A stretch of DNA of 64,000 nucleotides from Undibacterium paludis (lineage in GTDB: Bacteria; Pseudomonadota; Gammaproteobacteria; Burkholderiales; Burkholderiaceae_D), in the NCBI RefSeq assembly GCF_022568815.1, contig NZ_JAKZHX010000001.1, positions 62,001 through 126,000 on the forward strand, read 5' to 3'. The translations under genes were made by a program, and so were the position numbers. The notes beneath the pieces were generated by a model that ran no database searches, was not told where the DNA came from, and saw nothing but the letters and a program-made list of their open reading frames with translations. Positions 8,880 through 38,599 of this stretch are shown here, piece by piece. Each line of letters starts with the position of its first letter. Positions within the stretch are counted from its first letter, which is position 1.

Positions 8880-11800
8880 TTATTGAGACTGCAACGGTGT
8901 CACAGCATGACCTGGCCTGGCTTCGCCATGAGCAATGGCAGGCGCTTCATGATGGACGGCTGAATGCAGCTTGCGGCTGCCTTTCATGGAGCGCAGCAGG
9001 ACATAGAAAACCGGCGTCAGGAACAGGCCAAACAAGGTCACACCCAGCATGCCAAAGAATACCGCCACACCCATGGCATGCCGCATTTCTGAACCTGCGC
9101 CTGTTGAAGTCACCAGCGGGATGACGCCCATGATGAAGGCAATGGAAGTCATCAAGATAGGACGCAGACGCAGGCGGCTGGCATCAATCGCCGCCTGCAT
9201 GGGCGTGCTGCCCTGTAGTTCCAGCTCACGGGCAAACTCAACGATCAGGATGGCATTCTTCGACGCCAGACCAACCAGCACCATCAGACCTATCTGGGTA
9301 AAGATATTGTTGTCACCACCGGTCAGCCACACACCGGTCAGTGCAGCCAGCAAACTCATGGGTACAATCAGGATGACAGCCAGTGGCAGAGTCAGGCTTT
9401 CATACTGGGCAGCCAGTACCAGGAATACCAGCAGTACACTGATGGGGAATACCCATATGCCTGCATTGCCGGCAATGATTTGCTGATAGGTCAGGTCTGT
9501 CCATTCAAACTTGATACCGGCTGGCAGGGTCTGAGCTGCAATACGTTCTGCCGCCGCCTGTGCCTGGCTCGATGAATAGCCGGGCGCAGGACCGCCATTG
9601 ATGTCAGCAGCTGTATAACCGTTGTAGCGCACCACCATTTCAGGGCCAAAGCCAGGTGTGACCTTCACCATCGATGACAGGGGCACCATTTCGCCGTTGC
9701 TGCTGCGGGTTTTCAGTTGCAGGATGTCTTCCGGCTTTTCGCGGAACTGTGCATCCGCCTGCGCCCTCACCTGGTATACCCGGCCAAAACGGTTGAAATC
9801 ATTGACGTATAAGGAACCGAGGTAAATCTGCATGGTGTCGAACACATCGGTAATCGGTACGCCAAGCTGTTTGGCCTTGACGCGGTCAAGATCGACATTG
9901 AGTTGCGGCACATTGGTCTGGTAGCTGGAAAACATCGGTCCCAGTTCCGGCGCCTTTTGTGCCGCAGCAATGAAAGCCTGGGTGGCATTGTCAAGCTCCT
10001 TGTAACCCAGTGCAGCCTTGTCTTCAATTTGCATCTTGAAACCGCCGACAGTCCCCAGACCCATCACCGGTGGTGGCGGGAATACGGCAATGAAAGCGTC
10101 CTTGATGCCAAAATATTTCTGGTTCAGGCTGCCGGCAATACTGTTTGCTGACAGAGCCTTGCTGCGACGCTCTTCAAATGGTTTGAGTGTGACGAACACG
10201 ATACCGGCGCTGGAACTATTGGTAAAGCCGTTGATGGACAGACCAGGGAAAGCAACAGCGCTTTCCACACCAGGTTCTTTCAGGGCGATCTCGGTCATGC
10301 GACGGATAACCGACTCGGTACGGTCGAGGCTGGCACCGTTGGGTAACTGGGTAAAACTGACCAGGTATTGCTTGTCTTGCGAAGGTACAAAACCGCCAGG
10401 CACGATATAAGAGACACCAACAGTCAGGCCCAGCAATACTGCATAAATACCCATCATCATCGATTTGCGTGAAATCACCCTGGCGACACCACTGGAATAT
10501 TGCTCAGAACCACGGTTGAAGAAACGGTTGAATGCAGCAAAGAAACGGCCGAACAATTTGTCCATGACGCGCGTCAGCCAGTCTTTCTTCTCATCATGCC
10601 CCTTGAGCAGTATCGCTGCCAGCGCTGGTGACAGAGTCAGCGAATTGAAAGCCGAGATCACGGTAGAAATTGCGATCGTCATCGCAAACTGCTTGTAGAA
10701 CTGGCCGGTCAGGCCCGTCATGAAAGCCAGTGGTACAAAAACCGCAACCAGGGTCAGGGCAATCGCAATGATGGGGCCGCTGACTTCACGCATGGCGCGA
10801 TAGGTGGCTTCTTTCGGTGTCAGGCCGGCAGCAATATTGCGCTCGACATTTTCCACCACCACGATGGCGTCATCGACCACGATACCAATCGCCAGCACCA
10901 TGCCGAACAACGACAAGGCATTGATGGAATAACCAAAGCCCAGCATCAGTGAAAACGTACCGACGATGGATACCGGCACTGCCAGCAGGGGAATCAGCGA
11001 AGCCCGCCAGGTCTGCAGGAATACAATGACCACCAGCACCACCAGGGCGATGGCTTCCAGCAAGGTTTCCACAACGGCGTGGATACTGGAACGCACAAAC
11101 TGGGTCGGGTCATACACGATCTCATACTTCACTGAGCTGGGGAAGTCTGCCGACAGCTCCTTCATCGCAGCGCGCACCTGGTCAGAGACATTCAGGGCAT
11201 TCGCACCTGGTGACTGGAAGATGGGGATGGCGACCGCTGACTTGTTGTTAAGCAGCGAGCGCAAGCCATATTCTGATGCAGCCAGTTCTATCTTGGCGAC
11301 ATCACCAAGGCGGGTGACAGCACCATCGTCCGATGTCTTCAGGATGATACCGGCAAATTCTGCCTCGCTTTGCAGGCGGCCTTGTGCGTTGACATTGAAT
11401 TGCAGATCGGTATTCGATGTCGTCGGCGATGCACCGATCACACCGGCTGCCACCTGTATGTTCTGCTCGCGGATGGCATTGACGACATTGGCTGCGGTCA
11501 GGCCGCGTTGCGCTACTTTTTGCGGGTCCAGCCAGACACGCATGGCATAGTTACCCGAGCCGAACAGGCCGACCTCACCGACACCATTGATGCGCGCCAG
11601 CCTGTCCTTGACGTTCAGCACGGCATAATTGCGCAGGTAGGTCATGTCATAGCGGTCATCCGGTGAGGTCAGATGTACCACCATGGTCAGCGTCGGCGAA
11701 CTCTTGATCGTGGTCACGCCCAGACGCTGTACGTCAGGCGGCAGACGAGGCAAGGCTTGCGACACCCGGTTTTGCACCAGTTGCTGCGCCTTGTCCGGGT

Positions 11801-16644: not shown

Positions 16645-17439
16645 ATGGACAACCTGTTTCGCCACTTGCATCACCAAGCCGCCCCGCTCTGCCTGCCCAA
16701 TGCCTGGGATGCCGGCAGCGCCTGTCTGATTGCTGACCTGGGGGCACAGGCGATCGCCACCACCAGCGCCGGCGTGGCATGGTCCCTGGGTTACCGCGAC
16801 GGCGACGTATTGCCGCTGGATGAACATCTCGCCTGCATCAGGCGCATACATAGGGTGATTGATGTGCCGCTCAGTGTGGACATGGAAGGCGGCTACTCCG
16901 CCAACCCGGCTACGGTCGGCGACACGGTAGCGCGTTTCATGGATGCCGGTGCAGTCGGCATCAACCTGCAGGACGCTTCTGCCCCACCGGAATTATTGTG
17001 CGAAAAAATCATTTCAGCCCGTACTGCTGCGGCACGAGCTGGTATTGATCTCTACATCAATATCCGCACTGATGTCTTTGCACGCCAGCTGGTCGCAACA
17101 GAGCAACGGGTGGAAGAAACGCTGAAGCGGGCACAAGCGTATCGCAATGCCGGTGCGGACGGCATCTTCGTATTGGGTGCAGTTACTGTGGATGAGATTC
17201 GCCGTATTGCCAGCGGTACAGAATTATTATTGAATGTGATTGCCTGGCCGGGGCTGCCGCCAGTGTCCGAACTAGCGGCGCTCGGTGTGCGCCGGGTCAG
17301 TGCCGGTTCATGGCTGCCACAAACATTGTGGGCGCAGACGGCCACTCTGGTGCGTGATTTTCTTGAGCATGGCATGTCAGAGCCTCTGGTTGAGCAGGCC
17401 GCTCCGTATGGCAATATCAATGCACTGATGCCAGTGTAA
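16645..17439 (+). CDS. Isocitrate lyase/phosphoenolpyruvate mutase family protein
   Basis: 264 aa from the ATG at 16645, with GGGAG 8 nt upstream. The open frame extends far upstream, but that part is antisense to the LysR gene. The sequence shows the TIM-barrel hallmarks of this superfamily: PNAWDAGSA near residue 18, a DMEGGYS metal-site segment, NLQDA, and INIRTDVFAR. It lacks the catalytic KKCGH signature of true isocitrate lyase, so cleavage of C-C or C-P bonds in a small 2-oxo acid is more likely. The stop directly abuts the convergent trxB stop with no intergenic base. The substrate is unknown; regulation by the divergent LysR protein is inferred. Confidence 0.85.
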   Translation: MDNLFRHLHHQAAPLCLPNAWDAGSACLIADLGAQAIATTSAGVAWSLGYRDGDVLPLDEHLACIRRIHRVIDVPLSVDMEGGYSANPATVGDTVARFMDAGAVGINLQDASAPPELLCEKIISARTAAARAGIDLYINIRTDVFARQLVATEQRVEETLKRAQAYRNAGADGIFVLGAVTVDEIRRIASGTELLLNVIAWPGLPPVSELAALGVRRVSAGSWLPQTLWAQTATLVRDFLEHGMSEPLVEQAAPYGNINALMPV

Positions 17440-20299
<2,860 letters not shown>

Positions 20300-24681: not shown

Positions 24682-25053
24682 TTAAATAAAAAAGCAAAGG
24701 TTCAGAAATACGGAATTAAAAAAACTGTGAACCAGGGCGCAGATACGCCAGTCCTTTTTCCACAGATACAGCAGTCCCAGCAGCAAACCTGGAACAAAAA
24801 CCAGGCTGGCGGACAGGTAACCTGAGCGCAGATGCAAGAGGCTGAAAGCCAGGGCAGCCAGCAAAACCACCGCTGCCTGCCGCCACCTGCCCCGCCCGGA
24901 CCATCGCATCAACTGATGTTGCAGGCCGGCACGGATAATCCATTCTTCCAGTACCGGCCCCAACAGCAGCAAACGCAATACCGTCAGCCAGGTCAGTGGA
25001 AAAACGGCATTGCTGCAAAAATTGCTGTAAAAACTGTCCGGGCCAAATTGCAT
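24682..25053 (-). CDS. mrtJ: CPBP-type glutamic intramembrane protease, MrtJ-like
   Basis: 123 aa, mostly hydrophobic. The three CPBP/Abi motifs are present: EEWIIR (36-41, EExxxR), FSLLH (70-74, FxxxH) and HSFFN (109-113, HxxxN). This is the active site of glutamic intramembrane proteases. The protein is short for the family but keeps all catalytic residues. It lies 23 bp upstream of a gene whose product ends in a JDVT-CTERM signal, exactly the pairing described for MrtJ, the dedicated processing enzyme. No strong ribosome site precedes the ATG, and an in-frame stop two codons upstream excludes an earlier start. Confidence 0.82.
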   Translation of the reverse strand: MQFGPDSFYSNFCSNAVFPLTWLTVLRLLLLGPVLEEWIIRAGLQHQLMRWSGRGRWRQAAVVLLAALAFSLLHLRSGYLSASLVFVPGLLLGLLYLWKKDWRICALVHSFFNSVFLNLCFFI

Positions 25054-25407: not shown

Positions 25408-25941
25408 GTGGAACTTATACAATTGATATCAAGGGCGGACCGTAGCGCCTTTGAGGTCTTGTATCGCGCCTACTTCCAGCGTCTGAGCCGCTTTCTCTCC
25501 AGTGCCTTTCATAATTCGCGTCTGATAGAAGAAGTGATCAACGAAACCATGTTTGTCGTCTGGCAAAAAGCGGATACCTATAACCATGCGTCCAAGGTTT
25601 CGACCTGGATATTTGCGATTGCCTACAGACAGGCATTGAAGGCCATCAACCAGTCAGACGAGCCGGTCGACAACGAGGTGGGACAGGAACTGGACAATGA
25701 AGAAAATGAGCCTGAGCAACAACTGTCCCGGCTGCAACTGGGCCAGTTGATACAAGGCGCGCTCAAGTCTTTACCGTTTGAGCAACGCATCGTTGTCAGC
25801 CTGACTTATTTTCATGACATGGGTTATCAGGAAATTGCTGAAATGATCAACTGCCCGGTCAATACGGTCAAAACCCGCATGTTCCATGCGCGCCTGAAAT
25901 TGAAGAACATGCTTTCCCTTCATATGGGAGTTACAGAATGA
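25408..25941 (+). CDS. ECF RNA polymerase sigma factor
   Basis: 177 aa, starting at GTG with GAGG 8 nt upstream. Region 2 spans about residues 10-75 (FEVLYRAYFQRLSRFL, then MFVVWQKADTY) and region 4 about 115-170 (LKSLPFEQRIVVSLTYF and the helix-turn-helix MGYQEIAEMINCPVNTVKTRMFHARLKL). This is the minimal two-domain ECF type. It overlaps the anti-sigma gene by ATGA. The likely regulon includes its own operon (anti-sigma, subtilase, porin). The signal is not known. Confidence 0.92.
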   Translation: MELIQLISRADRSAFEVLYRAYFQRLSRFLSSAFHNSRLIEEVINETMFVVWQKADTYNHASKVSTWIFAIAYRQALKAINQSDEPVDNEVGQELDNEENEPEQQLSRLQLGQLIQGALKSLPFEQRIVVSLTYFHDMGYQEIAEMINCPVNTVKTRMFHARLKLKNMLSLHMGVTE

Positions 25942-26723
25942 ACCAGCCAGCAATGAATAAACACCCAGCCAGTGAAGACACGCATCGTGCGATACAAGAG
26001 TTGTTACCCTGGTTTGCCGCCAACAGCCTGACCAGACAGGAAAAAGACATGTTGCAGCAGCACCTGGCATCCTGCACCCAGTGTCAGTCAGAACTGGCGT
26101 GGCATCAGGCCTTGCGTGAACATGAACCGCAAGCGGCGATCATGCCTGATGTCGATGCAGCCTTTGCAAAATTGTTGCCGCGCCTGCCGCCGGAAGTACA
26201 GTCTGCCAGACAAACGGAATTACCAGTAGAGTTGCAGGCAGGATCGCAGGCGGGGTCTGTATTAAAAACAAAAACAGTAGTTGACCAACCGGCTCCAGGC
26301 TGGCTGGCAAGCCTGAAGTCAAGATTAAAAGAATACCTGCAACAACCGGGCCGGGACTGGGCCATGGCAACCATAGCCTGCCAGTTTGTACTGATTGCGG
26401 GACTGGGCTTGGGGCTGGTATTCCAGTATAGTGAGCAAGATGGCAGAAACCATGAGTACCGCGCCCTCAGTGCTGCATCGGGCATGGAAAGCGTCAGGCA
26501 TGCTGATGGTGATATTGCAGTCAGCTTCAAACCTTCCGCGACAATACGCGAAATACAAAAGAGCCTGCATGCCAGCGGAGCCAGGATAATCGACGGACCA
26601 ACCATCGCAGATGTCTATATACTCAGCGTACCGACAGAGCAGTACCAGCAGGCATTGCAGACCCTGAGCGCCGAAGCACATGTCGCCTCGGTCGCCTCAC
26701 TGAAAACCGGTGCAACAAAATGA
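25938..26723 (+). CDS. Anti-sigma factor, zinc-finger type, membrane-anchored
   Basis: 261 aa. The N-terminal segment LLPWFAANSL and QQHLASCTQC (H-x3-C-x2-C) form the anti-sigma domain that clamps the ECF sigma factor. One membrane span lies near 145-168 (CQFVLIAGLGLGLVFQY). The C-terminal ~80 residues are extracytoplasmic and contain IREIQKSLHASGARIIDGP, similar in style to prodomain-like folds seen beside subtilases. Overlaps of 4 nt at both ends (ATGA) tie it to the sigma factor and to the protease. The signal may be sensed through the outer domain. Confidence 0.88.
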   Translation: MNQPAMNKHPASEDTHRAIQELLPWFAANSLTRQEKDMLQQHLASCTQCQSELAWHQALREHEPQAAIMPDVDAAFAKLLPRLPPEVQSARQTELPVELQAGSQAGSVLKTKTVVDQPAPGWLASLKSRLKEYLQQPGRDWAMATIACQFVLIAGLGLGLVFQYSEQDGRNHEYRALSAASGMESVRHADGDIAVSFKPSATIREIQKSLHASGARIIDGPTIADVYILSVPTEQYQQALQTLSAEAHVASVASLKTGATK

Positions 26724-28021
26724 AGCTGCGCTTATCTATCTCTTTCAACATACTGCCAGGTTTTCTCATGGCTTGCCTGCTCGCCGCTACGTCGGCGATT
26801 GCAGCCATACCCAATGATGACACGACCGCCCCACAGCAGGTGCAGCAGGCCGCCGTTGCAGAACGCCAGTTACTGGTCATGCTGCGCATGCCTGCCCCCC
26901 ATTATCGCCCTGATGTATCTTATGGTGGCAGCTATAAGAATGATATTACCGAAATCGCCAGACGCCGCCTGGCGGAAGAACTGGCTGGCAAATATGGCTT
27001 GAAAGTCATTGATAACTGGCCCATGCCCGCACTCAACATCAATTGCTATGTGATGCAGGCCGGCGAACATATTTCGCTGGAACAGGCCATCAGGCAATTG
27101 AACCAGGACCCGCAAATAGAATGGGCCCAGCCACTCAATACCTTCACCGCGCAATCAACCACACAGCCTGCCCTGTCACCTGCCGATGCCGGTCTGCAAG
27201 GCATGCAACTGGTTCAAAAATACTGGCAACTCAATGATGTCCATAAACTGGCTACCGGACGTAATGTACTGGTGGCCGTGATTGATAGCGGCATTGATAC
27301 CGGCCACCCAGACCTGCAAGGCCAGGTGCCAGTCAGGGAGAATTTTGTTGATGGCAATCCTTATCTGCCAGAAATACATGGCACAGGCGTAGCCGGCATC
27401 ATTGCCGCCCATCCGGATAGCAAGGGCATCACGGGCGTCGCTCCCGGCGCCCGCCTGATGGCTTTACGCGCCTGCTGGCAAGAAAAAAATGGCAGCACCA
27501 GTTGTAACAGCTTTACCCTGGGCAAAGCCATCAACTATGCAATCCTGAACCATGCCCAGGTCATCAATCTCAGTCTGTCCGGTCCTGACGATCCCTTGTT
27601 GCGCAAGTTGATAGATCTCGCCAATGCACGCGGTATCAAGGTGACAGGTGCTGTCGATTCAAGAAAAAGCGATGGCGGCTTCCCTGCTTCACATCCTGCC
27701 GTATTTGCCGTGTCCAACCAGCCTGAAAGTGGTATGCCGGACAAGAAAATACTGATTGCGCCCGGTATTGACATCCCTACGACAGCCTTGCATTCACGCT
27801 GGAATTTTGTCAGTGGCGCATCCTATTCGACTGCCCATATTTCTGGCATGATGGCGCTCTTAAGTGAGCTGCAACCGACGATCAAGCCGGTGAAAATACG
27901 CGATGGCATCATCATGCGCAACAGGCAGGATGATGACGTCAGGCTGAGTGGCAATATCGATTTTTGCGCCAGCATGAAACAACTGTCCGGACGATGTGCA
28001 TGCGTCTGCAAGAAAGATTAA
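26720..28021 (+). CDS. S8 subtilisin-like serine peptidase, secreted
   Basis: 433 aa with signal peptide (cleavage near AIAA). An N-terminal inhibitor-like region spans ~45-140. The catalytic triad is D189 (VIDSGID), H220 (EIHGTGVAG) and S368 (SGASYSTAHISG). The usual oxyanion-hole Asn within an AAGN motif is not seen; the aligned segment reads GAVDSRKSDGG. This may lower or alter activity. The C-terminus is Cys-rich (CACVCKKD). The start overlaps the anti-sigma stop as ATGA. A subtilase coded with sigma/anti-sigma may cleave the anti-sigma factor or a surface substrate; that is inference. Confidence 0.88.
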   Translation: MKLRLSISFNILPGFLMACLLAATSAIAAIPNDDTTAPQQVQQAAVAERQLLVMLRMPAPHYRPDVSYGGSYKNDITEIARRRLAEELAGKYGLKVIDNWPMPALNINCYVMQAGEHISLEQAIRQLNQDPQIEWAQPLNTFTAQSTTQPALSPADAGLQGMQLVQKYWQLNDVHKLATGRNVLVAVIDSGIDTGHPDLQGQVPVRENFVDGNPYLPEIHGTGVAGIIAAHPDSKGITGVAPGARLMALRACWQEKNGSTSCNSFTLGKAINYAILNHAQVINLSLSGPDDPLLRKLIDLANARGIKVTGAVDSRKSDGGFPASHPAVFAVSNQPESGMPDKKILIAPGIDIPTTALHSRWNFVSGASYSTAHISGMMALLSELQPTIKPVKIRDGIIMRNRQDDDVRLSGNIDFCASMKQLSGRCACVCKKD

Positions 28022-28071
28022 ATGTCCGACCTGAACGACATCACGGCATATCAACAGGAACAGGTAGCGAA

Positions 28072-28794
28072 TTGCGCCGACAGCTATTGATACCCCGTCC
28101 CTGGTTATTCACCCTGGCAACTGCCTCACTGGTATCGCTGCTGTGCCTGCCTGCCGGCATGGCGCAGGCGCAGACCAGCGGCAGCGTCGCTATCGTTTCT
28201 GATTACGTGTATCGCGGCATTTCGCTGACGAATGATAAACCGGCCTTGCAGTTCAACCTGGTCTACGACGCGCCGCAAGGCTGGTATGGTGGATTGTTCG
28301 CAACCCAGATGGCCGCGTCGGATAACCAGACCAGGATACGTTACATAGCCTACGGCGGCTACTCGCAAACCCTGCCCTCCGGCCTGAACTGGGAGCTGGG
28401 TGCCAATCAATTCCTGATGCCCCAGGACAGCAGCACCAATTACTCAGAAGTGTATGCAGGCTTGGGTTTTGAGCGTCTCAGCGCAAAAATCCATTATTCA
28501 CCCAATTACCTGAGAGCCAACAACAAGAATATCTATCTTGATCTTGGTGCAACCTATCCTGTCACCGATATGCTTGATGCCTTTGTCCACATCGGCTTTT
28601 CGAGATTGCTGCCCGCCACGATCTACGACAGCAGGGCCACCCGTTGCGACGCCATGCTGGGCTTGAACTTGCATCAGGCAGAGTGGACCCTTAGACTGGG
28701 CAGAACCGTGCAATGCGGCAATCAGAAAACAGCTAACCCATATGCAACGGCTTTTCAGGCCGCTACCGTTTTGAGCATTATTCGGGCTTTTTGA
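28072..28794 (+). CDS. TorF-like putative porin / outer-membrane barrel
   Basis: 240 aa if translation starts at the TTG at 28072 (AGG 7 nt upstream), which gives a compact signal peptide ending AQAQ. ATGs at 27994 and 28000 are in frame but lie inside the subtilase gene, so the start is uncertain. The mature part begins GSVAIVSDYVYRGISLTNDKPALQ, split here only for reference as SDYVYRGISLT, the hallmark of the TorF/Gcw_chp family. Alternating amphipathic strands follow. It is the fourth gene of the sigma-factor cluster. The role as a channel is inferred from family. Confidence 0.8.
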   Translation: MRRQLLIPRPWLFTLATASLVSLLCLPAGMAQAQTSGSVAIVSDYVYRGISLTNDKPALQFNLVYDAPQGWYGGLFATQMAASDNQTRIRYIAYGGYSQTLPSGLNWELGANQFLMPQDSSTNYSEVYAGLGFERLSAKIHYSPNYLRANNKNIYLDLGATYPVTDMLDAFVHIGFSRLLPATIYDSRATRCDAMLGLNLHQAEWTLRLGRTVQCGNQKTANPYATAFQAATVLSIIRAF

Positions 28795-30914: not shown

Positions 30915-31355
30915 ATGGCAAAAAGTAAGAGTTTTGTAGAGGTGCTGGCTGACGATCCCAATGCTGTTCCTGACGTGATTTTACTCAATGGCTTTACGGG
31001 GAAATCCGCCATGGAGGGTTATACCCGCCTCTACCTGAACGCAGTACTGAATGAATTTTACGAAATACCCAGTGACGCAATCCTGCATACGGCAAGTGCT
31101 ACTACTGCGGCTGACAATCCACTGGAAACCAGCTATTTGTGGATCAAGGCAGACGCCGAACTGATACGCAAAGGCAAGAGCGTTGCCGATACCAAGACCT
31201 GTTTCTTTACCGGCCCGATACAGAGCGCACAGACAGCCCAGACCAATGCGGCGGCCGCCGTCCAGAGCGGTCCGACAGGTGTCCAGAACTGTACGCAAGC
31301 GCCTGCCACATGCGGCAACACCGCCTGGCCAGGCTGTCCGGCAAATCCCAATTGA
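30915..31355 (+). CDS. Candidate RiPP precursor with leader and Cys/Thr core
   Basis: 146 aa, with CGGAG 7 nt before the ATG. Residues 1-100 are a folded-looking, charged leader (LLNGFTGKSAMEGYTRLYL, then EFYEIPSDAILH). After an Ala/Gln/Thr spacer, residues 119-141 form the putative core: GPTGVQNCT, then ATCGNTAWPGC. The core has three Cys and three Thr after the GPTG Thr, suited to dehydration and lanthionine closure. The same core pattern recurs twice in the next gene. No Ser occurs in the core. The gene leads a run that ends in kinase, HopA1-like and LanC genes. I do not recognise the leader family; the precursor role is inferred from context and the shared core. Confidence 0.7.
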   Translation: MAKSKSFVEVLADDPNAVPDVILLNGFTGKSAMEGYTRLYLNAVLNEFYEIPSDAILHTASATTAADNPLETSYLWIKADAELIRKGKSVADTKTCFFTGPIQSAQTAQTNAAAAVQSGPTGVQNCTQAPATCGNTAWPGCPANPN

Positions 31356-31512: not shown

Positions 31513-32544
31513 ATGACTACGCAATTCCCGATATGCCCCCCAATTACTCATCTACCCCCCTGCGGCGTTCAGACACTGTTGCCACAGTGTTTACCTCATA
31601 CTGTCATCATCCAGCAATGCCAGCCGCAGACTTTGCAACCACCGTGCCTTCCCCATACGATCATCATTCAGCAGTGCCAGCCGCAAACGCTGCAGACACC
31701 ATGCCTGCATACTGTGCATCCGCCATGCCCGCCTCAAACCTTGCAACCACATTGCCTGACACAAACTGTGCCAACACTGTGTATAGCTGGTACACACATT
31801 CCACCAACATTCACAACAACGACACCGGTCTTCAACACACCCGTGCAACAGACACCGGTTCAACACCAGGCACAAAACGCGTTCGCAGCACCGGCACAGG
31901 CACAGCAATTCGCTGCGGCAGCACCGGCAGGCGCAGGTCCTTTTGGCCCAACTGGCGTGCAATATTGCACAGCCGCACCACAATATTGCGGCAATACCGC
32001 CTGGGGTTGCCCACCACCCGCCGCCGCACCGCAACAGGCAGCACAAATGATGCCGCATCAGACCACCAATCCAACGGCATCGACACATTGCTTCATTTGC
32101 CCGCCAATGACGGTTGATGCAGCTGCCGCCAATGCCGCTGTTGGCCCAACTGGTGTCCAGCATTGCACGATTGCCCCGCAAGTTTGCGGCCACACGGCAT
32201 GGCATGGTTGCCAGCCACCGTTTTCCGCTCCACCGCATTGCCCTACCGTGGTCGCTGCCTTGTGCCTGCCACCATTGACTGCGCCACAGCATTGCCCGAC
32301 TGGTGTCGCTGTTTGCCACCAGACTGCCACACAGACAGTTGCACCGACACATCTGCTCGGTTGCACTTGCCTGCCGATGACGGTTGGCCCGGTAGTCCCT
32401 ACACACAATATGCCAATTTGTGGCCATGGTTGCCTGCCTATGACGATAGGTCCTGTCGTGCCTACACATAACATGCCGATTTGTGGCAACACTTGCCTGC
32501 CGATGACAGTCGGTCCGGCAATCACAGTACCGGGAGTTTGCTAA
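31513..32544 (+). CDS. Giant repetitive Cys/Thr/Pro/His-rich candidate RiPP precursor
   Basis: 343 aa, AGGAG 8 nt upstream. It has 29 Cys, about 20 His, many Thr, Pro and Gln, only two Ser, one Asp, and no Lys, Arg or Glu. Three zones are visible: residues 8-90 with Cys every 7-10 residues (CLPHTVIIQQCQPQT and close copies); a low-complexity Ala/Gln/Thr linker (~93-142); and residues 145-343 with two copies of the GPTGVQ-x-C-T core (145-166, 211-233), then three 21-residue repeats beginning CLPMT. There is no signal peptide and no leader like that of the first gene. It may be a multi-core lanthipeptide, a modified structural protein or a metal binder. Confidence 0.75.
   Translation: MTTQFPICPPITHLPPCGVQTLLPQCLPHTVIIQQCQPQTLQPPCLPHTIIIQQCQPQTLQTPCLHTVHPPCPPQTLQPHCLTQTVPTLCIAGTHIPPTFTTTTPVFNTPVQQTPVQHQAQNAFAAPAQAQQFAAAAPAGAGPFGPTGVQYCTAAPQYCGNTAWGCPPPAAAPQQAAQMMPHQTTNPTASTHCFICPPMTVDAAAANAAVGPTGVQHCTIAPQVCGHTAWHGCQPPFSAPPHCPTVVAALCLPPLTAPQHCPTGVAVCHQTATQTVAPTHLLGCTCLPMTVGPVVPTHNMPICGHGCLPMTIGPVVPTHNMPICGNTCLPMTVGPAITVPGVC
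31588..31701 (+). repeat. Two tandem 57-bp coding repeats
   Basis: Two head-to-tail units (31588-31644, 31645-31701) encode CLPHTVIIQQCQPQTLQPP and CLPHTIIIQQCQPQTLQTP. They differ at two residues and show that this part of the gene grew by duplication. Confidence 0.8.
32368..32541 (+). repeat. Tandem 63-bp coding repeats
   Basis: Two full 63-bp units (32368-32430, 32431-32493) and one partial unit (32494-32541) encode repeats opening CLPMTVGPVVPTHNMPICG or close variants. The last copy drifts to AITVPGVC before the stop. Confidence 0.85.
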
Positions 32545-32604: not shown

Positions 32605-32675
32605 CAAGATCAGGCAACAACGGCCAGACAGGCAATGTCTGGCCGCGGGGATCTTGTCGTCCTGTTTTTGTTTTT
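32605..32675 (+). terminator. Compound hairpin with T-rich tail between precursor and enzyme genes
   Basis: An outer stem caagatc/gatcttg (32605-32611, 32650-32656) encloses an inner 9-bp stem ggccagaca/tgtctggcc (32622-32630, 32636-32644). A T-rich run follows at 32665-32675. This may act as a partial terminator, so that precursors are made in excess over the enzymes. Confidence 0.55.
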
Positions 32676-32676
32676 C

Positions 32677-32710
32677 AAGCCCGAAGCGCGCACTGGCACG
32701 CTTCGGGCTT
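32677..32710 (+). other. Third hairpin upstream of the kinase gene
   Basis: A perfect 12-bp stem (aagcccgaagcg / cgcttcgggctt) with a 10-nt loop, directly after the T-rich run. It ends 45 nt before the kinase start. It could define a new 5' end after mRNA processing. Confidence 0.45.
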
Positions 32711-32754
32711 TGGTCTCCAATCAGTCTTTTCGCAAAAAACAAGGAGTAGCCCTG

Positions 32755-33864
32755 ATGTTTTTGACGCCTTCCAACATGGCCCATTATCTGCTGGCGAGAG
32801 GCACGCTGACGCCGGCCACGGTAGTCAACGGTGACTTCATGGTCGTCGAAGCTGGCCGCCGCAATCGCAATTTTAAAATCATCCATCGCAATGGCAGCGG
32901 TCTCTTCATCAAGCAGATCAAGGATATGGAGGCGATGTCCATCTCCACCATGCAGCGTGAAGCTGCCTGTTACCGCATGGCTTTGCAAGAGGGCTATCAT
33001 GGTCTGGCGCAACTGATGCCGCGCATGATAGACCATGATGCAGATCGCCATTGCCTGACCATAGACTTGTTGCCATCGGGTGAAAACCTGACTGAATTCC
33101 ATCAACGCAGACACAGCTTCCCTGTGGAAATTGGCAAGATGCTCGGCGTCTCGCTTGGCACTTACCACCAGACCCTGCGCGGCAAACCCTTGCGTGCAGA
33201 AGACCTGGCAAATTTCCCACGTACCGCCCCGTGGATATTATCCTTCCACCAGACCAGCCTGATGGGCGGCAATACCCTCAGTGGCGGTGTGCAGCAACTT
33301 GGCGCCATCATCCGGCAATACCCTGACCTGCAAAACAACCTGATGCGACTGGCCCGGCAATGGCAGTACGACAGCATCATCCACGGTGACATGAAGTGGG
33401 ATAATTGCGTGGTCTACCCTGATGCGGAAGGCAAGCTCAATTTGCGCATCATCGACTGGGAACTGGTCGATTATGGCGACGCCAGCTGGGACATCGGTGC
33501 AATATTACAGGCCTACCTGACTGCCTGGATATTTTCCATGCCTCTGGTGCAGGAAAACTCCCCTGAAAAATATGTCAGCAAGGCTGCTTATCAGCTTGAG
33601 ACCATGCAGCCCGCCATCCATGCATTCTGGCGCAGCTATACAGAAACTGCGGGCATAGGCAAGGCACAGGCAAATGCTTACTTGTTGCGTTGTATAGAAT
33701 ACGGCGCTGCACGCATGGTGCAGACCGCTTTTGAAATCCTTTATTACTCAAACACCATGACGGCACATGCAGCAACCCTGTTGCAGGTCAGCCAGAATAT
33801 TTTGCTTAATCCGCGCCAGGCAGCAACGGCCTTGTATGGTTTTCCCCAGGAGTTGTCATCATGA
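32755..33864 (+). CDS. Stand-alone lanthipeptide kinase-like protein (APH/protein-kinase fold)
   Basis: 369 aa from the ATG at 32755 with AAGGAG 8 nt upstream. Kinase features: Lys53 in LFIKQI, Glu69 in QREAACYR, catalytic loop HGDMKWDN (210-217) and metal-binding IIDWE (D234), as in aminoglycoside-phosphotransferase-like kinases. In class V lanthipeptide systems a separate kinase of this fold phosphorylates Ser/Thr of the precursor before elimination. Here it is followed, with overlapping stops and starts, by HopA1-like and LanC genes, which strongly supports that role. A role in antibiotic resistance is the alternative, but context argues against it. Confidence 0.85.
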   Translation: MFLTPSNMAHYLLARGTLTPATVVNGDFMVVEAGRRNRNFKIIHRNGSGLFIKQIKDMEAMSISTMQREAACYRMALQEGYHGLAQLMPRMIDHDADRHCLTIDLLPSGENLTEFHQRRHSFPVEIGKMLGVSLGTYHQTLRGKPLRAEDLANFPRTAPWILSFHQTSLMGGNTLSGGVQQLGAIIRQYPDLQNNLMRLARQWQYDSIIHGDMKWDNCVVYPDAEGKLNLRIIDWELVDYGDASWDIGAILQAYLTAWIFSMPLVQENSPEKYVSKAAYQLETMQPAIHAFWRSYTETAGIGKAQANAYLLRCIEYGAARMVQTAFEILYYSNTMTAHAATLLQVSQNILLNPRQAATALYGFPQELSS

Positions 33865-34868
33865 ACGAACCCACTCTCACTGATGAATTGACTGGCATTT
33901 TCGAACGCCTGCATATCCACAGCTATGCCGGCTATTCCTTCGGCGATGCGACTGTCCTGCCGGTGCCTGCCTACCCTGGTGTGAATGATCCGGCCATGGT
34001 CTTGATGGAAGCCATACGCACTACCCTGTATGGCAAATGCTATGTGCGTGACTGTGGTGATGAAGTAGCGACTCCCGCGCAAAACCTGATCCCTGTCCTG
34101 ACTCAGGTCAACCAGACACAGGACCGCTGGGACCCGGGCTGGAGTATTTACCAGCAAAGTCCGGACGGCCGCATTCTGGTGCAAAAAGGTGAACGCAGTC
34201 GCCCTGCCGTGGTCGGTGAATATGCAACCAACAAATGGCCGGGTGTACCGCCCGTACAAGGGGAGCAGGTCAACCTGCGCGTCTACCCTGGCACAGGTGA
34301 CGCCCAGCAAGGTTTTTATTACGCCTTTGGCAGCAGCCTGTCTGACCAGTTTGACGATTATGCGTTGTTGCGCTTTTACTTCAATGTACCGGCACATGCA
34401 GCGACGGAATTACTGCATGGCCTGACCGGCAAGCTCAATCGCTATGCCATCCCGTTTCGTTTCAAGACCCTTGTGGATGCCAGTGCCTACCGGCGCGCTG
34501 ACGCTGCGGTCTTGTATGTAGCCAAACGTTATCATGCCATCGTCAGTTCGCTCTTGCTGGATCTGCGCGAATCGTTAGGTGACAAATTGCGTCCTGCCGT
34601 ACCGATGTTCAGCAAACGTTTTGCCGACGGTATAGGCATGGCAGAAGAGCCAGGCACGGGCGAAAGCTTTGGCATGCATCGATGCCGCCTGGTGGCAGAA
34701 GGTATCATCGACGCCTGGCTGGCGGGCACACAGGCAATCAGCGCACGCAGCGAAGCGGTGAAAAAACGTTTCAGCAACAATGGTCTTGATCTGGCCGCAC
34801 CTTATCTGAACAAACGCTCTGTTGACTTGCTCGACACTGTCACTCTTACCGGGGGATTGAATTTATGA
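33861..34868 (+). CDS. HopA1-like protein, putative lanthipeptide phospho-Ser/Thr lyase
   Basis: 335 aa. The second half has the HopA1 effector-domain pattern: LLRFYFNVP, then LLHGLTGKLNRYAIPFRFK and YRRADAAVLYV. HopA1-type proteins in class V lanthipeptide clusters act as the lyase that removes phosphate to give dehydroalanine or dehydrobutyrine; HopA1 and OspF-related effectors do similar chemistry. The start overlaps the kinase stop by 4 nt, and the stop overlaps the LanC start, so the three proteins are made together. A plant-directed type III effector is unlikely, since no secretion genes are near. Confidence 0.85.
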   Translation: MNEPTLTDELTGIFERLHIHSYAGYSFGDATVLPVPAYPGVNDPAMVLMEAIRTTLYGKCYVRDCGDEVATPAQNLIPVLTQVNQTQDRWDPGWSIYQQSPDGRILVQKGERSRPAVVGEYATNKWPGVPPVQGEQVNLRVYPGTGDAQQGFYYAFGSSLSDQFDDYALLRFYFNVPAHAATELLHGLTGKLNRYAIPFRFKTLVDASAYRRADAAVLYVAKRYHAIVSSLLLDLRESLGDKLRPAVPMFSKRFADGIGMAEEPGTGESFGMHRCRLVAEGIIDAWLAGTQAISARSEAVKKRFSNNGLDLAAPYLNKRSVDLLDTVTLTGGLNL

Positions 34869-36130
34869 ATACAGGCAAAGACATGTACCTGGACGTGGCT
34901 GACCGCATAGGCCGCAATCTTTGTCGTGATGCCGTGTGGGATGGTGCACGCTGTAACTGGCTGGGCTGGTCCATGGAGTCGGTCAACCAGACCTGGGTGC
35001 CTGCGTATCGCTCATTTGCCGGGGACCTGTACTCGGGGACCAGCGGTATCGCCCTGTTCCTGGCTGAGTTGCACCAGTTTAGTAGCGACAGACAGCAAAA
35101 ACGGGTGATGGAAGCAGCACTGAACCAGGCCCTGTCCCTGTCGGCGCAAATGCAGGGCGCGGCGCGCAATGGTTTTTATGCCGGCGCCAGCGGCCTCGCC
35201 TATGTCCTGGTACGGATAGGACAATTGCAGCAAAACGAAGCCTTGATACAACGTGGCCTGAGTGAAATGGCGACGCTGTTGCCACTGGCGCCCGACGCGC
35301 ACTACGTCGACGTCATCGGCGGCAGTGCAGGTGCCATACCTGCCATGCTGAAACTGGGGCTGGAACACCAGCGGGCGGACTTCGTCGAGATGGCGCAACG
35401 ACATGGTGACGAACTGCTCAAACATGCTGTCAAGAGTGATCAAGGCTGGTCCTGGGACACCATGCATGTACCCGGCCAGAAAAACCTGACCGGTCATTCA
35501 CATGGTGTTGCCGGTATTGTCACGGCGCTGCTGGAACTGTACCGTGCATGTGGTGAAGAGCGTTATCTGGAAGGTGCGAAACAAGGTCTGCGCTATGAAC
35601 GTCATCTGTTCAGCGCACAACATAGCAACTGGCCCGATCTGCGCATGATGGATACCAGCCAGCCCGAAGCCGCACCCATCTATAACCTGGCCTGGTGTCA
35701 TGGCGCACCTGGCATAGGCTTGTCACGCCTGCGCAATGTCGCCCTGCTGGACTCAGACCCTGAGCTGATACAAGAACTCAATGCAGCACTGCAAACAACT
35801 GCACATGCCCTGCTGACACCGTGGGTGCATGGCATGGGTAATTATTCGCTCTGTCATGGCTCCTGCGGCAATGCGGAATTGATGATCATGGCAGGCCATG
35901 ACCTGAATCGCCCTGACCTGCTACAGGTCGCACACAAGGTCGCGCAAGAAGGCTGGCAGCACTATGGCCAGACTGAGATGGCCTGGCCCTGCGGTGTCGC
36001 AGGCGCGGGGGAGACACCCAACCTGATGCTGGGCACGGCAGGCATAGGCCATTTCTATCTGCGTCTGCATGACCCCGTGGCAGTACCCTCAGTACTGATC
36101 GTGACACCGCCGCAAAAACTGCCGCATTAA
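34865..36130 (+). CDS. LanC-like lanthionine cyclase
   Basis: 421 aa, the size of stand-alone LanC. It has repeated alpha-barrel GxxG motifs (YSGTSGIALFLAEL, FYAGASGLAYVLV, HSHGVAGIVTALLEL) and the zinc ligands C278 (AWCHGAPG) and C330-H331 (LCHGSCG). The HSHG histidine near 213 corresponds to the catalytic acid/base of NisC. The C-terminal GTAGIGHFYLRL is also typical. It would add Cys thiols to dehydrated Thr/Ser and close rings. It overlaps the HopA1-like gene by 4 nt and is the last gene of the operon, ended by a strong terminator. A canonical LanC beside a split kinase and HopA1 lyase is notable. Confidence 0.92.
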   Translation: MNTGKDMYLDVADRIGRNLCRDAVWDGARCNWLGWSMESVNQTWVPAYRSFAGDLYSGTSGIALFLAELHQFSSDRQQKRVMEAALNQALSLSAQMQGAARNGFYAGASGLAYVLVRIGQLQQNEALIQRGLSEMATLLPLAPDAHYVDVIGGSAGAIPAMLKLGLEHQRADFVEMAQRHGDELLKHAVKSDQGWSWDTMHVPGQKNLTGHSHGVAGIVTALLELYRACGEERYLEGAKQGLRYERHLFSAQHSNWPDLRMMDTSQPEAAPIYNLAWCHGAPGIGLSRLRNVALLDSDPELIQELNAALQTTAHALLTPWVHGMGNYSLCHGSCGNAELMIMAGHDLNRPDLLQVAHKVAQEGWQHYGQTEMAWPCGVAGAGETPNLMLGTAGIGHFYLRLHDPVAVPSVLIVTPPQKLPH

Positions 36131-36224: not shown

Positions 36225-36521
36225 TTACAACAAACGGCTATAGTAAGCAACTTCTGCTTTCAGGCGTGCCAGTTCCGCCTGGTCGCCGCGTGCCACGGCG
36301 TCCTGTATGGACACGCCATACAGGGCTTGCGGTGGCATGCCTTTGGCTTTCAATGCCCGGTCCAGTGAAGGCAGCAAGCGTTCAATGGCGGCAGCAGAGG
36401 TCAGGTAATCGAGTACCTGGTCGCGGATGGCAAGCATTTTGCTGACATCGCCACTGGCGATGGCGTCATGCATGGGGACTGCATATAAAGCAGCGAGAGG
36501 TGCAGCATTGGTAGAGGCCAT
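36225..36521 (-). CDS. DUF1843 two-repeat peptide
   Basis: 98 aa from the ATG at 36521, chosen for AAGGA 6 nt upstream (the open frame extends 14 codons further). It holds two DUF1843-type repeats: LYAVPMHDAIASGD (near 11) and LYGVSIQDAVARGD (near 66), each followed by a helix-forming stretch and ending YYSRLL. It lies 128 bp downstream of the radical SAM gene, and a three-repeat relative lies upstream of it. It is probably a substrate or scaffold of the radical SAM enzyme; no modification site is proven. The repeats are rich in conserved Tyr and Asp. Confidence 0.8.
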   Translation of the reverse strand: MASTNAAPLAALYAVPMHDAIASGDVSKMLAIRDQVLDYLTSAAAIERLLPSLDRALKAKGMPPQALYGVSIQDAVARGDQAELARLKAEVAYYSRLL

Positions 36522-36649
36522 ATCTATTCCTTTCAGTAGTGCATGCAGCGATATTGCTGGCATGCGATTGCAAAGAGGACATTTTCATCAAATCAAATGC
36601 GGGTGAACTACCCCGGCAGGCAGGAACTGTGCTTGCCGGTTCTTGCTCT

Positions 36650-38101
36650 TCATACGGTGCTGGTCAACGCATTCAGGCGATCAAGTACACGCCTGAGTTC
36701 GGCCATGACGGCTTGCCGCCTGGCTTCTTCAATTGCATACTTTTGTGCTGCTGCGGCAACATCCGCCCGGCAATGCGGACATGTTGTTTCATCTGGCCAG
36801 ATGTACTCATTGCAGTTGCGACAAAGCGTCAGTTCCGGCAGGGGAGCACTGGGCGTACGTTCTGCCACCCTTGGTGGCGGGGCCGGCTCTTCAGGCAGCA
36901 CTTCACGCCCCGGAATGGCTTCTTCATACAATTCAAATCTGCCTATGGCAAAAGGCTTGTCAGGCGCAGGCGCCACCTTGCGGATTTTTTCATGTATGCC
37001 GCGTTTTTCCAGTTTCAGTGCGCGGTAGTGGCAATAAGGGTTATTGCCAGGTTTGCCAAACAGGGAATCGGAAGTCCAGGTGCAGCCACCACGACAGACA
37101 TCGGCGTAGTAACAGGTACGACAATGGCCCCACAAGGAATCAATATTGCGCATGCGGCCAAAGTGCAGGGCTTCAGAGGTGTTCCACAATTCTGCTACGG
37201 CAGTATCGCGGACATTGCCGCCGCCATAGGTTTCTGTCGCCAGCGAAGGACATCCCTTGATGGTGCCATCGGCTTCCAGGCCGATAACATTCTGACCGGC
37301 GGCACAACCTGTCCAGTGCAGGGTTTCATCGCCCAGACCACGCCAGTGATGCTCGAATGGACCGAAGTAACCAAGGTTATTGCCAAAGGTCAGCAACAGG
37401 CCGCGTTGCTGACCCTCATGGTAAAGACGGTTCAATAAAGGCATGAGTTCCAGGACACGATGCGGTTGCAACAGCAGGTGATCATTCTCTACCGCATTGC
37501 CCATGGCCACCGTGATTTGCAACTGCCAGTGGGTGGCGCCGGCTTCGATGATGCGATTGAACAGTGGTTCCAGCTGCTCTATGGTTTCTGCACCGATCTG
37601 GGTATTACAGCTGACACCCATACCCAGGGACTTCGCGGTTTCCATGGCGCGCAGGGCATCATTCCAGGAACCAACTACACCGCGTACCCTGTCGTGATAG
37701 TCCTTCATGCCATCGATGGAAACACCGATGCCAAACAAACCTGCCTCTTTACCTGCCTGCAACCTGGCCGTATTGAGGTTGCGCGCCCCGGTCTGTATAC
37801 CTACCCGGATGCCATGGCCGGCAATGCGCGACACCAGTTGCAGCCAGTCCTTGCGCAAGAATGCTTCGCCACCTATCAGGGTGATTTCACGTGTGCCCAG
37901 GGCAGCCAGCTGATCGATCACCGACAATGCTTCATCGGTAGACAGTTCGCCCACCCTGCGTTTGCCTGCACGCGAACCACAATGACTGCACTTGAGGTTA
38001 CAGGCGAGTGTAATTTCCCACACAACATGCACAGGGGTATGGCCATTCAGGTCGGACAGTGTGCGCGCCCTGGCGGGTTCGGATACGAGAGTTTGTTCCA
38101 T
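36650..38101 (-). CDS. SPASM-domain radical SAM peptide-modifying enzyme with zinc-ribbon tail
   Basis: 483 aa from the ATG at 38101 (CGGAG 6 nt upstream; an ATG 12 codons earlier has no site). The radical SAM cluster motif is CNLKCSHC (C34, C38, C41), followed by the GGE-like IGGEAF. The SPASM region has GCAAGQNV, then CPSLATE, CRTCYYADVCRGGC and NPYC, expected to bind auxiliary Fe-S clusters. A C-terminal extension carries a zinc-ribbon-like CRNC...CPHC. SPASM enzymes usually modify ribosomal peptides through C-C or C-S bonds. The flanking DUF1843 genes on the same strand are the natural substrate candidates. The reaction type is unknown. Confidence 0.88.
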   Translation of the reverse strand: MEQTLVSEPARARTLSDLNGHTPVHVVWEITLACNLKCSHCGSRAGKRRVGELSTDEALSVIDQLAALGTREITLIGGEAFLRKDWLQLVSRIAGHGIRVGIQTGARNLNTARLQAGKEAGLFGIGVSIDGMKDYHDRVRGVVGSWNDALRAMETAKSLGMGVSCNTQIGAETIEQLEPLFNRIIEAGATHWQLQITVAMGNAVENDHLLLQPHRVLELMPLLNRLYHEGQQRGLLLTFGNNLGYFGPFEHHWRGLGDETLHWTGCAAGQNVIGLEADGTIKGCPSLATETYGGGNVRDTAVAELWNTSEALHFGRMRNIDSLWGHCRTCYYADVCRGGCTWTSDSLFGKPGNNPYCHYRALKLEKRGIHEKIRKVAPAPDKPFAIGRFELYEEAIPGREVLPEEPAPPPRVAERTPSAPLPELTLCRNCNEYIWPDETTCPHCRADVAAAAQKYAIEEARRQAVMAELRRVLDRLNALTSTV

Positions 38102-38158
38102 GCTTGGCTCCGGTGGGAAATGCCAGCGAACTGGCATCTGGGATTAAGTGATGCCTGC

Positions 38159-38599
38159 TTACTTCCCTGCGTTGAGTTGCGCCAGCAGGCTTTGGGCATA
38201 AGCTTTGAGACGATCCACTTCTGCGTGGTCGCCACGGGCCTGTGCATCCTGTATGGCAACGCCGTAAGGTGTGACTGGATGAAAGGCGCTGGCGCCACCC
38301 AGCAGGTTGTTATAGGTATTCAGTTCAGTTTTGATGCGGGCAATTTCAACACTGTCACCACGGGCCAGTGCGTCTTGTATGGTGACGGCATACAGCGGAC
38401 GTATTACACCGCCCTTGGTCTTGATGGCATTTTCCAGCTCAGGCAACAGGCGGGCAACATCAGCCGCTGCTGCCAGGTGGGTGAATGCGGCTTCGCGTGC
38501 AGCACTCAGTTGAGCCGTATCACCACTAGCAATGGCATCGCTCATCGCTGCAGCATACATAGGTATAACAGGGCCATAAGAATCTTTATTGGTAGTCAT
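38159..38599 (-). CDS. DUF1843 three-repeat protein
   Basis: 146 aa; AGGAG sits 6 nt before the ATG. It has three DUF1843-like units: MYAAAMSDAIASGD (near 14), LYAVTIQDALARGD (near 69) and PYGVAIQDAQARGD (near 111), each followed by an amphipathic helix. DUF1843 proteins are normally single short units, so this is a tandem form. It is the first gene of the minus-strand operon, 57 bp ahead of the radical SAM gene, and probably its substrate or carrier. Confidence 0.82.
   Translation of the reverse strand: MTTNKDSYGPVIPMYAAAMSDAIASGDTAQLSAAREAAFTHLAAAADVARLLPELENAIKTKGGVIRPLYAVTIQDALARGDSVEIARIKTELNTYNNLLGGASAFHPVTPYGVAIQDAQARGDHAEVDRLKAYAQSLLAQLNAGK

Follow-up and report, generated by a model that had tools for sequence, protein, structure and literature searches.

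REP, a long and repetitive protein of Undibacterium paludis, is likely modified by the LanK-LanY-LanC enzymes of the three genes that follow it, as a multi-ring substrate without a leader; the product of the preceding gene, LEAD, may be a precursor and also act as an adaptor in trans. Gene order, conservation and residue spacing indicate that REP is very probably a substrate of the three enzymes (KIN, HOP and LANC), and that it probably yields a lanthipeptide of a kind not recognised before, very long and heavily cross-linked. The sequence-only reading of the window (the whole stretch of 64,000 nucleotides analysed here) had proposed REP as a possible multi-core RiPP substrate. Gene order, conservation and the Thr-Cys spacing support this proposal, and the ring chemistry itself is what we infer from them.

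Operon organization

REP is the second gene of a five-gene operon, with all genes on the forward strand:

30915..31355, + strand: LEAD, 146-aa precursor-like protein with a leader region of about 118 aa and the core GPTGVQNCTQAPATCGNTAWPGCP (core DNA 31269-31352), from translation and orthologues
31513..32544, + strand: REP, proposed multi-ring class V substrate, a 343-aa repetitive Cys/Thr/Pro/His protein
32635..33864, + strand: KIN, APH-fold kinase, LxmK/LanK-like (PF01636, E 3e-6)
33861..34868, + strand: HOP, HopA1-type phospho-Ser/Thr lyase, LanY-like (PF17914, E 7.7e-38)
34865..36130, + strand: LANC, lanthionine cyclase (PF05147, E 2.1e-61)

By sequence, LEAD has the layout of class V precursors, with an N-terminal leader and a C-terminal core containing Cys, Ser and Thr. 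Its C-terminal GPTGVQNCTQAPATCGNTAWPGCP shares the pattern GPTG..C..C..CGNTAW with the REP units GPTGVQYCTAAPQYCGNTAWGC and GPTGVQHCTIAPQVCGHTAWHGC. Neither LEAD nor REP matched any Pfam or NCBIfam family. AlphaFold2 models of both had low mean pLDDT (44.0 for LEAD and 40.3 for REP, the latter from six aligned rows), which gave no confident fold for REP and was too weak for a fold search with either protein. Scans of the window for Rfam families and tRNAs found none, and promoter and terminator scans of it returned only chance numbers.

Sequence and selection of REP

The translation of REP contains 29 Cys, 48 Thr, 60 Pro, 20 His, two Ser and one Asp, and has no Lys, Arg or Glu. These values agree exactly with the length and counts given in the sequence-only reading, where Thr had been described as many, and its 19- and 21-residue tandem units were found again as repeats of 57 nt (31570-31683) and 63 nt (32367-32492). 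Units of GPTGVQ type begin at residues 145 and 211, and CLPMT units at residues 286, 307 and 328. The following parts were distinguished in the protein:

31534..31782, + strand: N-terminal Cys/Thr domain with 19-residue tandem units
31843..31944, + strand: Cys-free Ala/Gln/Pro spacer with NAFAAPAQAQ, of which A125-Q131 are invariant in six Undibacterium
31945..32010, + strand: core-like unit 1, GPTGVQYCTAAPQYCGNTAWGC, from translation and repeat analysis
32143..32211, + strand: core-like unit 2, GPTGVQHCTIAPQVCGHTAWHGC, from translation and repeat analysis
32368..32541, + strand: C-terminal 21-residue units of CLPMTVGPVVPTHNMPICGHG type, two full and one partial

The copy number of the N-terminal 19-residue unit differs between orthologues, and the NAFAAPAQAQ spacer may be a candidate enzyme-recognition motif.

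The ATG of REP is preceded by a Shine-Dalgarno-like AGGAGAG. Three pairs of internal REP units differed by 10 synonymous changes, against nonsynonymous counts of 4, 6 and 4. Among the closer orthologues, five pairs had dN of 0.079-0.083 and dS of 0.75-0.87 (for example 0.080 and 0.87 for L026 against L027; L numbers denote loci and G numbers genomes). The window REP was more divergent, with dN of 0.29-0.34 and dS of 1.5-2.9, the latter near saturation. Because unit copies differ mainly silently and dN between orthologues is much lower than dS, REP is not a chance open reading frame, and by its substitution pattern it is a real gene under purifying selection.

At the nine REP starts known to us, the in-frame room upstream is 2-10 codons, and therefore no leader is hidden there. 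REP thus does not have the leader on the same chain that is found in class V LanA. It does have several repeats of a presumably modifiable core, as multi-core precursors have.

Spacing of Thr and Cys

Thr-x4-Cys occurred 17 times in the window REP, against 4.0 in shuffled sequences (z 7.3), and it was enriched in each of eight REP proteins (z 7.2 to 10.3). Cys residues with Thr at position -5 or -6 numbered 24/29 in the window REP and 29/34, 29/33, 29/33, 31/35, 32/39, 22/32 and 25/34 in the other seven, and no shuffle exceeded 17. One-to-one matching of Thr with Cys left all eight counts unchanged; in the window REP it gave 24 pairs for 29 Cys, against a shuffle mean of 7.3 and a maximum of 14. 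The ninth REP, of genome G864, showed Ser/Thr-x4-Cys with z 5.1. Since repeats inflate such counts, the 165 Cys contexts of the eight proteins were reduced to 38 dissimilar ones. Thr stood at -5 in 18/38 of these and at -5 or -6 in 29/38 (binomial 2.4e-11). In the two Sideroxydans REPs, 10/32 and 9/34 Cys had no Thr at -5 or -6. Cys-x3-Thr was also frequent in the window REP (13 times), and therefore the direction of the putative rings is ambiguous.

The sequence-only reading had offered a metal-binding structural protein as its alternative, and this gained no support. Cys-x(0-4)-Cys spacings occurred 0, 1, 1, 2 and 0 times in the window REP, against shuffle means of about 2.4 each, and none was clearly above. 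CxC and CxxC, which a metallothionein-like protein would be expected to contain, were found once each (shuffle means 2.3 and 2.4).

Modification enzymes

The best NCBIfam model for KIN was LxmK (NF038156, E 8e-27), with 94 bits, far under the equivalog cut-off of 315. The five Undibacterium orthologues are 369 aa, and for this reason the true start of KIN is probably the ATG at 32755. In an alignment of 11 loci, residues K93, H250, D252, N257 and D274 of KIN were invariant, in accordance with a LanK of class V, and so were R171, K202, R212 and Y219 of HOP, in accordance with LanY. The HOP residues follow the spacing of the published catalytic residues of CaoY (R187, K219, R229 and Y236; PMC9486802): K-to-R (+10) and K-to-Y (+17) are equal and R-to-K is 31 against 32, a comparison of residue spacing with published numbers. 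For CaoY, the K219A variant is described as having lost elimination and R187A as having nearly lost it (PMC9486802).

Among NCBIfam models, LANC is similar to the C-terminal portion of LanM, and its residues H213, C278, C330 and H331 were invariant among the same 11 loci, as is appropriate for the LanC of subgroup Vb. We take these four to be zinc-ligand positions, as in NisC. Judged from their sequences, the enzymes of the operon are a class V (Vb-like) lanthipeptide set with intact catalytic residues. In the kinase tree, REP-type kinases of Undibacterium and Sideroxydans formed one group (support 90/90), so enzymes and substrate seem to travel together.

Distribution of REP and LEAD

A REP search of 392 genomes of the family matched 8; six were Undibacterium including the window's own, with a best E of 1.3e-49 or better. 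The two weak matches, in G377 and G050, were rejected: in locus L008 the match is a frame antisense inside a longer open reading frame, in L009 nothing matched on recheck, and no LanKYC homologue is near either of them.

The order LEAD-REP-KIN-HOP-LANC is common to the six Undibacterium (the window and five others). Two Sideroxydans MAGs have the same order, with REP proteins of 280 and 317 aa that carry their own repeat expansions and keep the core and the C-terminal motif; one of their contigs (L033, 7180 bases) ends after the lyase and before LANC. A HopA1 search of 383 phylum-wide genomes matched 4 including the window's own. Genome G864 (L102), which belongs to another class, encodes LEAD, a REP-like protein of 459 aa (33 masked residues), a kinase, a lyase and LanC. 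REP is accompanied by LEAD in 9/9 loci and ranges from 280 to 459 aa.

The sequence-only reading had suggested searching for REP homologues next to LanC genes, and had named homologues without nearby modification genes as the case that would speak against it. That case did not arise: the kinase and lyase genes come immediately after REP in 9/9 loci, and LanC follows in 8/9, the ninth being the contig that ends after the lyase.

LEAD shares 73-77% identity with its orthologues in the five Undibacterium and 66 and 68% with those in the two Sideroxydans MAGs. Its similarity to the G864 homologue is 36% over 92 aa (E 1e-21), with the leader part kept. At the C-terminal end of the G864 protein the GPTG core is no longer present and nothing matches the core of REP. 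That the leader is kept although the core is lost fits a trans role for the LEAD leader.

Searches with LEAD and PF17914 in 369 class-wide genomes matched only the window's own genome, and no LEAD match was found among plasmids. Among 14 named control genomes, PF17914 was found only in Corynebacterium glutamicum. A lyase scan of genome contigs gave no relative; it was insensitive, because it missed Undibacterium records which a LEAD scan of the same collection (two short patterns, five loci) had found.

Other kinase-lyase-LanC loci

HopA1 was present in 16/43 Undibacterium genomes and in 23/392 genomes of the family, at 24 places. The kinase-lyase-LanC set was complete at 18 of these, 2 were cut by contig ends and 4 had no recognisable kinase and LanC. 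The two cut loci, L056 and L066, were left out of the 18, as the contig ends before or within the kinase; in L066 LanC homology is spread on two open reading frames. At loci L082, L083, L084, L086 and L103, no homologue of the kinase or of LanC was seen close to HopA1, and these five were excluded from class V. A weak REP-like match in L084 (27% over 100 aa, E 1.9e-4) was taken as an effect of composition.

A repetitive Cys/Ser/Thr open reading frame was found directly upstream of the kinase in 17/18 complete family loci, in several unlike designs: the six REP loci, nine other Undibacterium (L057-L065), L080 and L081. Among the nine, L058 has nine CTQTC units, L061 has fifteen TTTQTCCP-like units and L063 only two units. 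The L080 substrate contains DCCWIVLATTGCST four times. L081, from another genus, encodes at 9060-10211 (- strand) a 383-aa protein of eight units which is unlike REP in sequence and overlaps the called kinase start. At L085, the sole exception, the precursor is of leader type with a single core, and its leader is similar to LEAD (hhalign probability 86.8%, E 4.2e-6). Nothing as long and repetitive as REP had been familiar to the sequence-only reading, and this remark is overtaken, as repetitive substrates are usual beside these enzymes in the family.

Outside the family, genome G963 of another class (L104:4593-5942, + strand) has a 449-aa repetitive open reading frame upstream of kinase-HopA1-LanC, again unlike REP, and in G873 no kinase or LanC homologue was found in the 10 kb fetched around HopA1. 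Fourteen plasmid records had a HopA1 relative. Six were inspected, and a repeated substrate was seen only in Aliiroseovarius, with three repeats by eye and two by strict pattern. A similarity to a Deinococcus leader was weak (E 0.0041, probability 8%) and was rejected.

The x4 spacing was not enriched in L057-L059, L062, L064, L080 and L104, and in L065 its enrichment was weak. Different spacings, x2 among them, were enriched in the non-REP repeat families. So the -5/-6 rule is not common to all. About 85 residues precede the first unit in L104 and mostly 20-30 in the other Undibacterium substrates, and L081 has upstream room of 4 codons. L104 and the non-REP Undibacterium substrates may therefore have room for a short leader, which makes them less clear than REP. 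No LEAD homologue was found at the nine non-REP Undibacterium loci (L057-L065).

The otherwise unlike substrates of L057-L065 and REP (residues 122-131) share an F/Y-V/A/I-A/P-P-x-Q/P motif, a possible internal recognition site. This motif, FVAPAQ or more generally of [FYLI][VAI][AP]P type, was unusual in seven of the nine other Undibacterium substrates. In REP the same pattern did not reach significance (P about 0.10-0.13), and it was absent from the Sideroxydans proteins, L060, L064, L069, L080 and L081, so we regard it as no more than a lead. Upstream of the substrate, L057-L065 encode a conserved protein of about 450 aa (for example L058:11396-12748, - strand); its motifs look nitrilase-like to us, and it had no Pfam match in the two proteins tested and no PDB match in the one tested.

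Comparison with known systems

The enzymes resemble those of class V subgroup Vb (SmoA/SmoC type) and of cacaoidin (CaoK/CaoY), with an APH-type kinase and a HopA1-type lyase, here together with LanC. Class V systems with LanC form subgroup Vb, and class V is so far described in PMC12328550 only from actinobacteria, whereas the host here belongs to Pseudomonadota. Type-B candidates from cyanobacteria are reported in PMC9486802, where precursor open reading frames were collected below 110 residues, a limit that would exclude both REP and LEAD. Class V precursors are presented there as leader plus core, unlike the leaderless and repetitive REP of 343 aa.

Several modifiable units on one polypeptide are known from other RiPP classes, namely cyanobactins and the multi-core microviridin precursor AMdnA (PMC5934393), and the proposed arrangement of REP is similar. 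AMdnA differs in that its leader is part of the precursor chain and its links are esters/amides. Lanthipeptides do not appear in the 2018 list of multi-core RiPPs given in PMC5934393. For nisin, a leader supplied in trans stimulates a leaderless substrate (Khusainov and Kuipers 2012, as cited in PMC12328550). REP would likewise be a leaderless substrate aided by a separate leader; the nisin case is a laboratory construct, whereas LEAD and REP are a natural gene pair with a presumed trans role. No lanthipeptide literature on Undibacterium was found. No paper on such a substrate was found by title or abstract among the matches listed, which is weak evidence with most subscription journals uncovered.

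Proposed modification of REP and alternative explanations

In the reading that we think likely, KIN would phosphorylate Thr residues of REP and HOP would eliminate the phosphate to give dehydrobutyrine. LANC would then add the Cys located five or six residues C-terminal and so close methyllanthionine rings, of which the window REP could have as many as about 24. LEAD would provide a leader bound by the enzymes together with one copy of the same three-ring core as in REP. It may be both precursor and adaptor, presenting or activating the enzymes for REP in trans; LEAD could also be a second, independent substrate. Several points count against this reading: KIN scores under the LxmK cut-off, REP is leaderless unlike the characterised class V substrates, and HopA1 occurs without kinase and LanC in five inspected loci. 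The Cys of the Sideroxydans REPs that have no Thr at -5 or -6, the lack of x4 enrichment in other repeat families, the frequent Cys-x3-Thr and the single repeated substrate among six inspected plasmid loci weigh on the same side.

REP might be modified through the same first steps and then cut into many short active methyllanthionine peptides (GPTG cores, NPT-THC and CLPMT units), which we regard as possible and rather unlikely. The heterogeneous units, one with the LEAD core pattern, and the multi-core precursors of other RiPP classes (PMC5934393) are consistent with cutting. However, alignment by eye showed no conserved or uniform spacer between all units, and the operon has no protease gene recognised by Pfam or NCBIfam. 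Nor did the fetched stretches of the five relatives contain the S8 peptidase (26720-28018). If the enzymes act on LEAD only, which by itself is a complete leader-core precursor, REP could be an unmodified metal-binding or structural protein, as its 20 His and 29 Cys would suit. We find this improbable, since no Cys-Cys spacing rose clearly over shuffles while Thr-Cys pairing is strong, and since both Sideroxydans REPs have only 7 His with Cys and Thr kept. Moreover, unlike repetitive open reading frames occupy the same slot in nine LEAD-less Undibacterium loci. The same nine loci would be left unexplained if REP served the producer as a decoy or for immunity, by sequestering the enzymes or the mature LEAD peptide. 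The core motif common to LEAD and REP and the lack of a recognised immunity gene in the operon could be read in that way, and we hold it to be very improbable.

Within the preferred reading of REP as a leaderless multi-ring substrate, a wider proposal is speculative and, in our estimate, doubtful. LEAD would work as a natural split leader, in trans on the leaderless REP of 280-459 aa in the nine loci, to give an uncleaved protein with some 20-30 methyllanthionine rings, and LanKYC loci across Pseudomonadota would each have evolved their own repetitive substrate. We know of no earlier lanthionine-cross-linked polymer that has the size of a protein, as such a product would.

Modification of REP, if it takes place, would mean that lanthionine chemistry reaches beyond short peptides to whole cross-linked proteins. 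Lanthipeptide biology would gain long, repetitive and leaderless substrates, class V would extend to Pseudomonadota, and it would be shown how precursor searches limited to short open reading frames could miss such substrates. A set of enzymes able to introduce some 24 rings into a chain that carries no leader would be a useful tool for producing thioether-stapled proteins, and trans-leader action could be tested directly with LEAD and REP.

Genomic neighbourhood

Pfam scans of 20 gene products at 21.8-42.3 kb of the window recognised no transporter, and the transporter/leader-protease part of class V systems was not found there. The missing transporter suggests, if weakly, that the product is retained inside the cell or on its surface. 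Because REP is moreover uncharged, we have a weak preference for a cell-retained structural or protective polymer rather than a small secreted antibiotic. One membrane peptidase homologue lies about 6 kb from LEAD:

24682-25053, - strand: Rce1-like CAAX-type membrane peptidase homologue

An ECF sigma factor, a zinc-finger anti-sigma-like protein, the S8 peptidase and Gcw_chp are encoded in a row at 25408-28791 (+ strand), and this row was not found in the fetched stretches of five Undibacterium relatives.

At 36225-38599 (- strand) the window encodes a GDL-type radical SAM/SPASM maturase (TIGR03913) and two DUF1843 proteins. The maturase and the DUF1843 pair follow LANC in 6/6 REP-bearing Undibacterium, and TIGR03913 was above cut-off in 7/43 genomes, the six REP-bearing ones and G259. 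No homologue was seen in the Sideroxydans stretch L034, and these genes are probably a separate RiPP system. In L034, a LuxR-type autoinducer-binding regulator is encoded upstream of the operon (7937-8656, + strand) and a B12-binding radical SAM protein downstream of it (17265-19253, + strand).
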